From positions 1 to 7,995 of the forward strand of contig RFFU01000038.1 in assembly GCA_003697085.1 (NCBI GenBank): a stretch of DNA of 7,995 bases, read 5' to 3'. This stretch comes from Candidatus Hydrogenedentota bacterium (GTDB lineage: Bacteria > UBA8481 > J006). Both the position numbers and the translations under genes were made by a program. Shown piece by piece: positions 762 to 7,995 of this stretch; within the stretch, counting starts at the first letter, position 1; each line of letters starts with the position of its first letter. The notes below the pieces were generated by a model that did not search any database, was not told where the DNA came from, and saw only the letters and a list, made by a program, of their open reading frames with translations.

Positions 762-3700
762 ATGACTTATTCTTACGCTAAATCCCGCTGTGACGAGGTG
801 ACACGGTACCTCGACAGCGAACTCAAGAAACGCATCCTGATCCTCGACGGCGCCATGGGCACGATGATCCAAAGGCATAACCCTACGGAAGAGGATTATC
901 GGGGCGACGTCTTTGCCGACCACGACAAGAACCTGAAGGGCTGTAATGACCTGCTCTGCCTGACCCGCCCCGAGATCATCCGCGATATCCATGCCGCCTA
1001 CCTCAAGGCGGGCGCGGACATCATCGAGACAAACACCTTCAACGCAACCTCCATCTCCCTTGCCGATTACGCTCTCGAAGATCAGGTCATTCCCGTCAGC
1101 CGCGCCGCCGCCGCACTTGCCCGCGCGGCCGCTGACGAGCTCTCAACGGAAGAGCGTCCGCGCTTCGTTGCCGGAGTGCTTGGCCCGACGAATCGCACCG
1201 CGACACTCTCTCCCGACGTCAACAATCCAGGCTTCCGTAACGTCTCCTTCGATGAACTGAAGAAGACCTATCTCGATTCAATCTCGGGTCTGGTCGAGGG
1301 CGGCGTGGATATCCTTCTGATCGAGACCGTCTTCGACACGCTCAAGGCCAAGGCGGCCATCTACGCGGTCGAGGACTTCTTCGAGCGGGAAGGCCTCCGC
1401 ATGCCGGTCATGATCTCCGGAACGATCACCGACGCCAGCGGGCGCACGCTCTCGGGACAAACACCCGAGGCCTTCTGGTACTCCGTCGCCCATGCCCGGC
1501 CTCTCTCAATCGGGTTCAACTGCGCTCTGGGCGCGAAGGACCTGCGCCCGCATATCCAGGAGGTCTCCCGTTGCGCCGATGTCTTCATAAGCGCCCATCC
1601 CAACGCCGGACTCCCGAACGAATTCGGCGGCTATGACGAGACTCCGGAAAGCATGGCCGAAATCCTGCGCGACTTCGCCCACGAGGGCCTGCTCAACATC
1701 GTCGGCGGCTGCTGTGGAACGACTCCCGACCATATCCGCACCATCGCCGAAGCCGTGGCCAACGAAGAACCGCGCCCGATCCCGTCTCTCGACCCGTACT
1801 GCCGCCTGAGCGGTCTGGAACCGCTGGTGATTCGCCCCGAAAGCAACTTCGTTAACATCGGCGAGCGCACCAACGTCACGGGATCGCGCAAGTTCGCAAG
1901 ATTGATCCGCGAGAAGAAGACAGAAGAGGCGCTCTCGGTCGCCCGCGCTCAGGTCGAGAACGGCGCACAGATGATTGACGTCAATATGGACGAGGGAATG
2001 CTCGACTCGGAAGAAGAGATGCGGATGTTCCTCTATCACGTCGCCTCCGAGCCGGATATCAGCAAGCTCCCGATCGTGATCGATTCCTCGAAATGGAGCG
2101 TGATCGAATCGGGTCTGAAGTGCGTTCAGGGCAAGGGGATCGTCAACTCGATCAGCATGAAGGAGGGCGAGGAGGTCTTCCTGGAGCACGCGCGCAAGGT
2201 CCGGCGCTACGGCTTCGCCGTGATCGTTATGGCCTTCGACGAAAACGGCCAGGCTGACACGCTCGAACGCCGTGTTGCGGTCTGCAAAAGGGCCTATCGT
2301 CTCCTTACCGAAGAGGCCGGATTCCCGCCGCACGACATCATCTTCGATCCGAACATCTTCGCCGTCGCGACCGGCATCGAGGAACACAACAACTACGCCG
2401 TCGATTTCATCGAGGCGGTTAAGAGGATCAAGGCGGAGTGCCCTGGGGTGCTGATCAGTGGAGGCGTCAGCAACGTATCCTTCTCCTTCCGCGGAAACAA
2501 TCCCGTCCGTGAAGCGATGCACGCCGTCTTCCTCTATCACGCCATCCGCGCGGGAATGGACATGGGGATCGTCAACGCCGGTCAGCTGGCAGTCTATGAG
2601 GACATTCCCGAACAACTGCGCGAACGTGTCGAGGATGGGATCCTGAACCGCCGGCCCGACGCGACGGACCGGTTGATGGAGGTCGCGGAGGAGTTCAGGG
2701 GATCGGCGGCAACCGCCAGGACGATCGACATGAGTTGGCGCGAAGCGCCGGTGGAGGAACGTCTGAAGCATGCCCTGATGAAGGGGATCGTCGAGTTCAT
2801 TGACGAGGACACCGAAGAGGCGCTCCAGAAACTCGGCAAACCGATCAACGTCATCGAAGGCCCGCTGATAGACGGGATGAACGTCGTCGGAGACCTCTTT
2901 GGCGCGGGAAAGATGTTTCTGCCTCAGGTCGTCAAGAGCGCGCGCGTCATGAAGAAATCCGTCGCCTGGCTCGTTCCCTATCTCGAGAAAGAGACGGTTG
3001 AGGATTCCGGGAAGGGGAAGCTTCTTCTGGCGACCGTCAAAGGTGACGTCCACGACATCGGCAAGAACATCGTCAGTATTGTCCTCCAGTGCAACGGCTA
3101 CGAGGTGATCGACCTTGGCGTTATGGTTCCGTGCGAGAAGATTCTGGAGACGGCACGCAAGGAGAACGTCGATGTCATCGGCCTGAGCGGACTGATCACG
3201 CCGTCGCTCGATGAGATGACGCATAACGCGGCGGAGATGGAGCGGGAGGGCTTCACGATTCCGCTGTTGATCGGAGGCGCGACAACCTCACGCATTCACA
3301 CGGCGGTCAAGATCGCTCCGGCATATCACGAACTCGTCGTCCACGTGACCGACGCCTCGCGCGCCGTCGGCGTTGTCGCACGGCTGCTGAATCCGGAGAT
3401 GAAACAGGAATTCGCTTCCGAACTTGCGGCGGATTACCAAAGACTCACGCAGCGGCACGAGGCCAAAAACGCCCGCGTGGAATTTCTTCCTCTGGAAAAA
3501 GCTCGCGCGAAAAAGTTCCCGACGGACTGGTCATCATACTCTCCGCCCAAGCCGACATTCCTGGGAGCGCGTGTCGTGAACGATCTCTCCTTCGACGCGA
3601 TCGTCGGTCGTATCGACTGGTCTCCGTTCTTCCAGGCGTGGGAACTTCCCGGAAGTTATCCGGCCATCTTCGAGGACAAGCAGGTCGGAAAGGAGGGCCG

Positions 3701-4406
3701 TAAACTCCACGATGATGCGCTCAAGATGCTGGAGGAATTGCGTGGAAAAATCCGCCCGCACGCGGTCGTCGGATTCTTTCCCGCAAACGCGACCGGGGAC
3801 GATATTCTCATCTACACCGACGAATCCCGCACGCAGGAACGCGCCGTCTTCTTCAATATGCGCCAGAAGAGGAAACACGGCGCTTCCAAACCGTATCTCT
3901 CGCTCGCCGACTTCATCGCGCCGGTCGAATCCGGCGTCCCGGATTACCTTGGTATGTTCATCGTGACCGCCGGACCGGAAGCGGATCTTCTGGCAACCGA
4001 ACACGAGAAGAAGAACGACGACTACGGCGCGCTGATGATTAAATCTCTCGCCGACCGGATTGCGGAGGCGACGGCCGAACATCTGCACGAACGGGTTCGC
4101 AAGGAACTCTGGGGGTATGCGCCGGAGGAAAACCTGACGAACGAGGAGATCATACTGGGAAAATATCGCGGCATCCGCACCGCACATGGCTACCCCGCCT
4201 GCCCCGATCACACCGAAAAGCGCACTCTCTTCCGCCTGCTCGACGCCGAAAAGAATTCTCCCGTCTCCCTCACCGAGACCTGCGCCATGCTCCCCGCCTC
4301 ATCCGTCAGCGGGCTTTACTTCTCCCATCCGCAAGCGCGCTACTTCGGCATCGGCCCGATCGCCGAAGACCAGGAGAAGGATTACACCACCCGCAAAAAC
4401 TCCTGA
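762..4406 (+). CDS. metH: Cobalamin-dependent methionine synthase (5-methyltetrahydrofolate--homocysteine methyltransferase), 3' end altered by an IS
   Basis: Cytosolic enzyme that moves the methyl group of 5-methyl-THF to homocysteine through methylcobalamin, giving methionine and THF. At 1214 aa it is close to the ~1227 aa of E. coli MetH, and all modules are present in order. Homocysteine domain (~20-340): DGAMGT, and zinc ligands C254, C317 and C318. Pterin domain (~360-650): [11 protein letters not shown] at 365-375. Cobalamin cap (~660-745): [19 protein letters not shown] from 704. Cobalamin Rossmann domain: DVHDIGK with axial H764, plus D762 and S815, matching the E. coli H759-D757-S810 triad with a constant +5 offset. 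Reactivation domain: [10 protein letters not shown] with R1139 and Y1144 at the AdoMet site. ATG 762 is the only good start before DGAMGT; a weak purine-rich GGAAAGGAA lies ~20 nt upstream. No B12 or SAM riboswitch fits the 57-nt leader. The protein ends DYTTRKNS, lacking the family's last ~18 residues. The TGA stop lies inside the IS end. Likely still active. Confidence 0.97.
4395..4401. repeat. Target-site duplication, left copy (AAAAACT)
   Basis: Seven bases immediately outside the left terminal repeat, identical to 6066-6072. It covers the AAA AAC codons and the first T of the next codon at the 3' end of metH. Confidence 0.93.
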
Positions 4407-4414
4407 CTTCGGAA
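4402..4414 (+). repeat. IS left terminal inverted repeat (transposase 3' side)
   Basis: CCTGACTTCGGAA is the exact reverse complement of the right end at 6053-6065. Its second to fifth bases (CTGA) complete a serine codon (TCC, 4401-4403) and give the TGA (4404-4406) that now ends metH. Confidence 0.95.
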
Positions 4415-4426
4415 ATTCAACACCCG

Positions 4427-5959
4427 TCATTTTTCATTGACCACTCGATAAAGCAGTGATTGTTCGTCATCCATATTCAACAATTGTCGTTGCCTGGTGC
4501 GGGAATCCGGAAGGGTGTATTCGAGTTCATACATGGTGCGTGTGAGTTCTGAGGCTTTTTGTGCGCTCATTTGAACACGGTTCTTTTTCAGCAGGCTTTC
4601 CAATTCCTTGTAAACCGCGTATGCAGCGAAGGCTACACACAGATGGGATTCGATTCTTCTCCTGCGGTAATGATAAATTGGTCTGATACGCAGATCGGTC
4701 TTGGAAATTCGGAAGGCCTTCTCTATTTGCCATAACTGTGAATAGTTTTCGATGATTGTTTTGGCAGGAAACTTCGTGTTCGTCTGATACCCTTTCAATC
4801 CGTCCCATTTGCCGTCCCTTCTGATTTTTTCGTCGTCAATGGTAATCATGACCTCACCTTTCAACGTGAGGAACTTGTTGTAACCACGCTGGTTTATCGA
4901 CTGTTTTGTCAGTCGGCCGCTTTTCAGTTTCTTTCGAAGACGACGGAGTCCCTTGTCGCGATTTGACGAGTCCTTATGGGCACGTGTGCTTGAATATGTC
5001 ACGAGAAGGCGGGAACCGTTGTCGCGTTCGATAAATAGATGATCCCCGTCCTTCATGCTAACGGAATGTTTCAGGATTTCCCTTTTAATTTGGTCGCTTT
5101 CATTCTTGATTCGGGCTCCGACGATATACTCGTGCCCGGCTTCCTCTAACTCTTTCAGATTCTTCTTCGAAAGCATTGCGGCATCAGCGATCACAACAGG
5201 CGGTTTGAATCCGTATTTCTTTTCAATGCCTTTGAGGGAGGTCATGAGCGTATGCCCCTCAAAGGTGTTTCCTTCATACAAATTATAACCGATCGGAAGA
5301 CCACCCGTTGCCACGAGAAGTCCCAGCATAACTTGGGGATGCTGGAACTTTCCGTCCTTGGAAAAACCTATTTTTCGCAGATCATCTTCATCTTCCGCCT
5401 CGAAATACAATGTGGTTACGTCATAGAAGACCACGGAAATCCCTTTCGCTCTCTTGCGAGTATGCTCATAGACGATTTTTTCGATTTGCGCCTTATGGCG
5501 CTTGTGAAGGCGGTCCAGAGATTTGTAGAGGGCGTCTACCGTTACCACCTTTCCCTCGTAGCGATAGAGGTAGTCCACCGTTTTCAGCTTGCTTGAGGGA
5601 AAGGCAAGGCGCGCAATGACCATGTGGCGAAACCAGGCATCCGGAATCTGATTAAGGCCGATACGATCGAACAGTTTTCCGAAGATTAATTCCGGCCCCG
5701 CGACGTGCACATCCGCGTTCGAAAATGATTCAATAAAAGATTTGGCGGATAGATCGTCTCTCGACTGCAACGAAAACAATCTTCCCTGTTTCGGATTCTC
5801 CTCCTTCGCCCGCCGTTTCGCTTCCATCCACAGGCGCTCGATCTCCTCGGGATCGGACGAAGTCCCCACAGTGCATTCAACTCGATAACGCCCTTGCTCC
5901 TTTGATATCACTTGAACGCTGACGGAACCGCTTCGATTTTTCACTTTTCGAGCAAACAT
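4427..5959 (-). CDS. IS1634-family DDE transposase (IS4 superfamily)
   Basis: 510-aa transposase that cuts the element ends and joins them to target DNA. The N-terminus (MFARKVKNRSGSVSVQVI) is typical of IS1634-type proteins. The RNase H-like catalytic core is complete: first Asp D180 in VVFYDVTTLYFE, second Asp D259 in VVIADAAMLSKK, the DGLKGYQTN segment (387-395), and the Glu motif Y406-x2-L-x3-E413-x6-K420 in YSQLWQIEKAFRISKTDLR. The catalytic triad is therefore D180-D259-E413, with an insertion domain between D259 and E413 (~285-380), as in other IS4-superfamily enzymes. Length is usual for the family and there is no stop or frameshift. No Shine-Dalgarno sequence precedes the ATG. A possible minus-strand promoter (-35 TTGGCC at 5995-5990, -10 TAAAAT at 5971-5966, 18-bp spacer) would place the transcript start at about the ATG, giving a leaderless mRNA; this is weak inference. 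The gene converges on metH. Confidence 0.93.
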   Translation of the reverse strand: MFARKVKNRSGSVSVQVISKEQGRYRVECTVGTSSDPEEIERLWMEAKRRAKEENPKQGRLFSLQSRDDLSAKSFIESFSNADVHVAGPELIFGKLFDRIGLNQIPDAWFRHMVIARLAFPSSKLKTVDYLYRYEGKVVTVDALYKSLDRLHKRHKAQIEKIVYEHTRKRAKGISVVFYDVTTLYFEAEDEDDLRKIGFSKDGKFQHPQVMLGLLVATGGLPIGYNLYEGNTFEGHTLMTSLKGIEKKYGFKPPVVIADAAMLSKKNLKELEEAGHEYIVGARIKNESDQIKREILKHSVSMKDGDHLFIERDNGSRLLVTYSSTRAHKDSSNRDKGLRRLRKKLKSGRLTKQSINQRGYNKFLTLKGEVMITIDDEKIRRDGKWDGLKGYQTNTKFPAKTIIENYSQLWQIEKAFRISKTDLRIRPIYHYRRRRIESHLCVAFAAYAVYKELESLLKKNRVQMSAQKASELTRTMYELEYTLPDSRTRQRQLLNMDDEQSLLYRVVNEK

Positions 5960-5965
5960 CGGCCG

Positions 5966-5995
5966 ATTTTACGCATGCAACACCCACTTGGCCAA
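5966..5995 (-). promoter_or_regulatory. Possible transposase promoter within the IS right end
   Basis: Reading the minus strand, TTGGCC (5995-5990, 4 of 6 to TTGACA), an 18-bp spacer and TAAAAT (5971-5966, 5 of 6 to TATAAT) precede the transposase ATG at 5959. The -10 is so close to the start codon that the message would be leaderless, which agrees with the absence of a ribosome binding site. Short AT-rich matches of this kind occur by chance, so confidence is low. Confidence 0.25.
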
Positions 5996-6052
5996 TTCAT
6001 ATAGACCTAACCTCAGAAATTACAGGGCTTTACATTTTTCTTGATTTGACCG

Positions 6053-6065
6053 TTCCGAAGTCAGG
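6053..6065 (-). repeat. IS right terminal inverted repeat (transposase 5' side)
   Basis: TTCCGAAGTCAGG is a perfect 13-bp inverted match to the left end. It lies upstream of the transposase start, so the transposase promoter must sit between here and 5960 or be supplied from outside. Confidence 0.95.
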
Positions 6066-6072
6066 AAAAACT
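6066..6072. repeat. Target-site duplication, right copy (AAAAACT)
   Basis: Seven bases immediately outside the right terminal repeat, identical to 4395-4401. Joining 4394 to 6066 restores the pre-insertion locus and continues the metH reading frame for S-S-P and a TAA stop at 6081-6083. Confidence 0.93.
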
Positions 6073-6075
6073 CTT

Positions 6076-6120
6076 CCCCCTAACACATAACCCCCCCATC
6101 GATATCCCCCCACTCATCCC
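6076..6120 (-). other. C-tract cluster (G-tracts on the minus strand)
   Basis: Runs of 5 C (6076-6080), 7 C (6091-6097), 6 C (6106-6111) and 3 C (6118-6120) lie within 45 bp, in a plus strand almost free of G. On the minus strand these are four G-tracts of three or more, with spacers of about 10, 8 and 6 nt, so an intramolecular quadruplex is conceivable although two spacers exceed the usual 7 nt. The tract begins inside the old 3' end of metH (the former proline codon) and continues into its 3' flank. Confidence 0.45.
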
Positions 6121-6990: not shown

Positions 6991-7211
6991 CCCGACATCG
7001 CCGAAAGTCCCGCCGGATTGTACCACGCGGCATCCAGTCCGCGCGCTCCCGCCGGCATAATTCCTCCGACCGCCGGAGCGTGCGCGCCATATCCGAGCCG
7101 CAGAAGCTCTCCGCTGGTCGATCCTCCCGACGATCCCGCCATCGCAGGAATCGACGCGAGCAGAACGATCCCGAACGCCGATGCCACAACCTTCCATCCT
7201 CGCTTCATCAT
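6915..7211 (-). CDS. PorV/PorQ-family outer-membrane protein, 5' part with signal peptide, ending early after a frameshift
   Basis: N-terminal part of the same barrel gene. Two adjacent ATGs (7211 and 7208) are possible starts. From the second, MKRGWKVVASAFGIVLLASI is a clear Sec signal peptide with a likely cut after AMA (about residue 24). It is followed by the family hallmark AxxxGxAxPAxxGGxMPAGARGLDAAWYNPAGLSAM, where a residue stretch like GARxxxxxxYNPAGL is typical of PorV/PorQ/UPF0164 proteins. After SAMSG the frame departs from the family (GRSAADISHFLKELIWGRW) and stops at 6915. The homologous continuation lies in another frame (see 6268-6990). The start overlaps the stop of the upstream gene (ATGA or TGATG arrangement), so translation is probably coupled to it. 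Confidence 0.75.
   Translation of the reverse strand: MMKRGWKVVASAFGIVLLASIPAMAGSSGGSTSGELLRLGYGAHAPAVGGIMPAGARGLDAAWYNPAGLSAMSGGRSAADISHFLKELIWGRWVTLSR
6980..7000 (-). other. Frameshift site in the PorV/PorQ-like gene (one base missing)
   Basis: Family-like sequence leaves one minus-strand frame after NPAGLSAMSG and resumes in another at about REIGGGYQSLPEG. Adding one base in the GGGCGGG stretch (6987-6993) joins the two halves as SAMSG-(R/G)-EIGGGYQSL and makes the total length divisible by three. It may be a real mutation or a sequencing or assembly error at short G runs. No classic slippery heptamer is visible. Confidence 0.75.
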
Positions 7212-7995
7212 CGGATCACCGTCAACTTTCCGGTCCGCGTCTCCCCCGTGGACGTATCCTTGATCCGCCACAAGTACACGCCGCTGGCGACATCCTGACC
7301 GTCACCGTTACGCACGTCCCACTGGACCTGACCCGTCGAATTCGTCGTCGAGAAGCGGAAGACGCGGCGGCCCGAGAGACTAAAGACCTCAATCTCGACC
7401 TGAGCCGGTAGATTCCCGAAGAAGATCCCCGTTCCCGCCGCGCCCGTGTAATTTGCTCCCGTCGCCGGATTCCCGTCATTCGGCCGGAACGGATTCGGAC
7501 CGACAACCACGTTCGAAAGATTCACCGAAGCCCCGACGCCGACAAGCCTGAAGATCGAGAAGTGCTCCGTCCACGTTTTCAGCCAGCCCGGCTGTCCGTT
7601 CGCCGGATCCTGCTTCGCGATCGTCGGCCTCTCTTCCCATAGGTCTCCTGCAACACCCGTATGACGATAGATCTTCAGCGTGTTCCAGCGAATCTGCGTC
7701 CCATCCACAAAGCCGTCGTTGTTGTCGTCCCGGAACGTCATCGTAACTGTTGCCGTTTCCCCGTTCGCAAGCTGGGTATCCCCGTTCGACAGTTTCACCT
7801 CCAGCGCGTCCCACACATCCGCGTTCGTACCTGGCAAAGCCGTGTCAAAGGGCGTCGAGGGCTCGAACGAAACAATGATAAAGACCTGTGCTGTATCCGC
7901 CGCGCTCGGGAACGCTCCCGCCGGAATCACAACCTGGCCCGTCTGCGTGTCGGGGTTGTTGGTGATCGTAACCGTCTCCGTCCGGTTGACATTGA
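7208..7995 (-). CDS. Secreted protein with FlgD-like / T9SS-type C-terminal sorting tail (5' end outside window)
   Basis: The frame is open to the right edge, so only the last ~262 residues are seen; the GTG at 7930 is probably internal. Parts in order: a beta-rich segment with VIPAGAFPSAADTAQVFI and VKLSNGDTQLANGETATVTM; a DDNNDGFVDG loop (7729-7703) with the D-x-N-x-D-G-x-x-D spacing of calcium-binding loops; LKIYRHTGVAGDLWEE and WTEHFSIFRLVG, resembling the ZU5-like modules often found before such tails; then the C-terminal domain. That domain has the hallmark pieces PNPFRPNDGNP, IFFGNLPAQVEIEVFSLSGR, QVQWDVRNGDGQDVASGVYL and a closing GKLTVIR, as in FlgD Ig-like / Por secretion-tail domains. 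Such tails mark proteins for export and surface attachment in T9SS organisms; other phyla have look-alikes of uncertain role. The stop overlaps the PorV/PorQ-like start by 1-4 nt. The function of the missing N-terminal part is unknown. Confidence 0.82.
   Translation of the reverse strand, partial: NVNRTETVTITNNPDTQTGQVVIPAGAFPSAADTAQVFIIVSFEPSTPFDTALPGTNADVWDALEVKLSNGDTQLANGETATVTMTFRDDNNDGFVDGTQIRWNTLKIYRHTGVAGDLWEERPTIAKQDPANGQPGWLKTWTEHFSIFRLVGVGASVNLSNVVVGPNPFRPNDGNPATGANYTGAAGTGIFFGNLPAQVEIEVFSLSGRRVFRFSTTNSTGQVQWDVRNGDGQDVASGVYLWRIKDTSTGETRTGKLTVIR

Follow-up and report, generated by a model that had tools for sequence, protein, structure and literature searches.

The metH locus and its insertion

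The window, the whole 7995-bp stretch of DNA analysed here, is the complete contig C68 of a draft genome of 3.2 Mb in 145 contigs (completeness estimate 94.6%). It carries a cobalamin-dependent methionine synthase gene, metH, with an insertion sequence (IS) in its last codons:

762-4406, + strand: metH, cobalamin-dependent methionine synthase, 1214 aa, stop codon IS-derived (TIGR02082 and NF007024 far above cutoffs; five complete Pfam domains)
4395-4401: target duplication, left copy, AAAAACT (AAAAC, 4396-4400, in a 5-bp model)
4402-6065 (or 4401-6066), - strand: insertion sequence, IS1634 family, 1664 bp (terminal repeats, target duplication; single copy)
4402-4414: terminal inverted repeat CCTGACTTCGGAA, on the transposase 3′ side
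4404-4406, + strand: TGA stop of metH, from the terminal repeat
4427-5959, - strand: transposase, IS1634 family, intact, 510 aa (NF033559; DDE_Tnp_1; D180, D259, E413)
6053-6065: terminal inverted repeat TTCCGAAGTCAGG, on the transposase 5′ side
6066-6072: target duplication, right copy, AAAAACT
6073-6083, + strand: putative original end of metH, displaced, CTTCCCCCTAA (with the preceding T, Ser-Pro-stop; the frame is restored without the IS and one duplication copy)

At the edges of the window, an upstream gene has its 3′ end in positions 3-704, which match SLC12-type cation-chloride cotransporters in their C-terminal region (PF03522 passes its cutoff, TIGR00930 does not), and positions 7208-7993 on the - strand encode the C-terminal part of a protein that matches the CHU_C type IX secretion signal domain weakly, below cutoff.

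The two terminal repeats are complementary at 13 of 13 bp, or over 14 bp with T4401 and A6066 included, and this leaves two boundary models. The element either spans 4402-6065 and is flanked by the 7-bp duplication AAAAACT, or spans 4401-6066 with 14-bp repeats and a 5-bp duplication, AAAAC; the models fit equally well and predict an identical empty site, CGCAAAAACTCTTCCCCCTAA. In 14 of 20 copies of this kind of element the CCTG-type start has a T before it, and in 18 of 20 the opposite end has an A after it (the metH copy counted), so the T...A pair may be part of the element or of the target it prefers. Under the 5-bp model, the final Ser codon of metH (TCC, 4401-4403) also comes entirely from the IS. 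Perfect terminal repeats of 13 or 14 bp and a target duplication around an intact transposase gene rule out a chance arrangement.

Since the window is a short contig from a draft, metagenome-type assembly, the junctions could in principle be an assembly artefact, an explanation we consider extremely improbable. No further copy of the element was found in the same draft genome, which makes repeat-induced misassembly at the junctions unlikely; both flanks are unique, and the target duplication and terminal repeats are perfect. An exact match to CCTGACTTCGGAA is present in contig C95, and when read by eye the sequence beyond those bases is unlike the element.

Effect of the insertion on the metH reading frame

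The first-pass annotation of this DNA proposed that the IS supplies the metH stop codon at a cost of two residues, and on recheck its bases and coordinates were all correct. With the IS in place metH reads ...DYTTRKNS and stops at the TGA inside the inverted repeat. Removing the IS and one AAAAACT (762-4401 joined to 6073 onward) gives a frame that continues K-N-S-S-P and then stops at TAA 6081-6083; compared with this restored frame, the window MetH lacks two residues. Both the frames and the complete Pfam domains agree that the insertion costs metH just Ser-Pro and leaves the rest intact. As in the MetH family generally, all five Pfam domains are shared through to the activation domain, covering the homocysteine, folate, cobalamin and activation regions. 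The TIGR02082 match reaches the last position of its profile at MetH residue 1197, and that of Pfam Met_synt_B12 does so at residue 1213 of 1214; as both profiles are matched to their last positions before the lost residues, these lie outside both. The longer NF007024 (PRK09490) profile is covered up to position 1215 of 1234, and the alignment of E. coli MetH (1msk) with the window MetH reaches the K-N position near its end.

The element is a new IS1634-family member

The transposase gene is the only evident gene of the element and its ORF is intact. Its product scored 347.6 bits against NF033559 (cutoff 100), with residues 36-507 aligned to profile positions 17-479 of 483, and it also matched DDE_Tnp_1 (PF01609) in Pfam. 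D180, D259 and E413 were invariant when eight members were aligned and, judged from their position, would form the catalytic triad. Members of the IS1634 family are 1500-2000 bp long, with ends that begin with C and have YT at positions 7-8 (PMC2266710), and the 1664-bp element, with CCTGACTT in the 4402-6065 model, fits this length, the initial C and YT at positions 7-8. In common with IS1634 and IS1549, of an emerging family related to IS4, it thus has an above-cutoff NF033559 transposase, the length and the terminal C, and its target duplication lies within an AT-rich tract and is 5 bp in one boundary model. We found no substantial difference from the family, save that the transposase is at most ~62% identical to the relatives found, which come from draft genomes of Omnitrophota, Elusimicrobia, Planctomycetota, Bacteroidota and others. 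The element is a new IS1634-family member of an ordinary kind.

The MetH C-terminus varies among relatives

A phylum-level search for relatives with an empty site gave one other genome, belonging only to the same order and having no copy of the element, and the best MetH match outside this genome was 62% identical. With relatives this distant, the ancestral empty site is a reconstruction from the two junctions. A second full-length metH is present in the same genome on contig C102 (L075, 4639-8253); it is 69% identical to the window metH, and the two cluster together in a tree with support of 100/100.

Comparison of the C-termini showed that the part of MetH beyond a Y-F pair is variable. The window MetH has 19 residues after Y-F with the element and 21 without, while of 19 further MetH compared, 12 end 2-5 residues past Y-F, and the C102 paralogue ends Y-F-A-V-stop. 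At the other extreme, the six closest outside MetH (L003-L007 and L018) have 33-44 residues after their last Y-F and extend ~15 to 26 residues beyond the K-N position, which makes the restored metH end short for its neighbourhood. It could be argued from these longer relatives, and from the NF007024 match that stops before the end of its profile, that the metH tail was once longer and was removed by the insertion or its aftermath, in which case K-N-S-S-P would not be ancestral. This seems very unlikely to us, since the target duplication is whole on both sides, which speaks against a deletion at the junction, and the C102 paralogue is even shorter. Searching downstream of the insertion in three frames we also found no remnants of the canonical MetH tail, which is of W-L-x-P-N type.

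Given the variability beyond Y-F, loss of Ser-Pro is probably neutral, and MetH function is probably kept, as far as sequence comparison can tell. The variable tail explains tolerance of the insertion better than the stop codon in the repeat does, and the second metH may add to this tolerance. In the scenario we favour, an IS1634-family element would have targeted the AT-rich AAAAACT in the final codons of metH, of which 7 (or 5) bp were duplicated on transposition. The TGA that forms bases 3-5 of the element's repeat would by chance have fallen in the metH frame, so that translation stops two residues early. MetH should remain functional, as the lost Ser-Pro belongs to a tail, absent from many MetH, that follows the conserved activation domain. 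We place the probability of this whole account, an ordinary IS1634-family insertion with a chance-frame stop and a functional MetH, at roughly 93%. The locus would then clearly illustrate a near-neutral insertion at the end of a housekeeping gene, a neat but ordinary accident, and its use is mainly for annotation, as the IS provides the stop codon of metH in this genome. Among the titles and abstracts retrieved by literature searches for IS-supplied stop codons, none dealt with such a case.

The stop codon in the repeat and the location of related copies

Although the reading of this single locus is sound, its generalisation to gene 3′ ends is not supported. The first-pass annotation had suggested that an IS whose end carries a stop is tolerated at gene 3′ ends, and that other copies might be enriched there. 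From either end of the element, the repeat TGA is hit in only one of three frames. In the remaining frames the first stop comes at base 37 or 56 from the left and at base 34 or 44 from the right, with closure 34-58 nt in, so that an in-frame insertion near a gene end adds at most 18 residues and the repeat TGA is unnecessary for tolerance. Nor is the motif constant, with CCTGA at 26 of 40 ends of related elements (14/20 and 12/20) and CCTGT common at the others.

A stronger version of the idea is that the terminal TGA has been selected in this IS1634 clade because it truncates host frames cleanly, making insertions benign and enriching them at gene 3′ ends. The frequency of CCTGA and the metH case itself fit this, as do two related copies (L038 and L047) that sit within 6 bp past the stop of an ORF. 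However, CCTGT at the remaining ends and the early closure of the frames that miss TGA count against it, and across 20 insertions there was no clear orientation or gene-end bias, the nearest ORFs pointing toward the element in 16 cases and away in 14. One copy (L042, 2907-4567) sits mid-frame in a type I restriction hsdR gene (4525-5961, with HSDR_N and SWI2/SNF2 ATPase domains), and among the 20 copies no convincing gene other than metH uses the repeat TGA as its stop. Selection for the terminal TGA is accordingly a reading to which we give very little weight. This gene-end comparison is crude, being based on the nearest ORFs with a minimum length of 80 codons, taken without gene prediction, with short flanks at several of the 20 copies, and a survey this small and ORF-based leaves room for a weak gene-end bias. 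ORFs beside two other copies (L041 and L046) seemingly end at the repeat TGA, and neither matched a Pfam family.

Target duplications of related copies

For the IS1634 family the published target duplications are AT-rich tracts of 5-6 bp, except that IS1634 and IS1549 make long and variable ones, from 8 to 514 bp, for which no mechanistic model had been proposed as of 2008 (PMC2266710). The related copies share such long variable duplications. Exact ones were found of 8 bp (L056, 476-2114), 22 bp (L046, 314-1968), 33 bp (L049, 2895-4561), 55 bp (L042), 70 bp (L047, 2900-4544) and 220 bp (L059, 2896-4554), along with one of 44 bp with a single mismatch (L051, 980-2628), and these copies serve as added examples of a behaviour whose mechanism was unmodelled in that account. 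At L047, a second IS1634-like transposase ORF (1379-2899) ends 6 bp before the element and the 70-bp duplication covers the end of that ORF; one element appears to have inserted at the 3′ end of another. At L036 (97-1768), the 96 bp to the left of the copy, which run to the end of both locus and contig, recur identically and end 1038 bp past its right end, possibly as a duplication of ~1 kb or as an assembly effect, given that the contig ends there.
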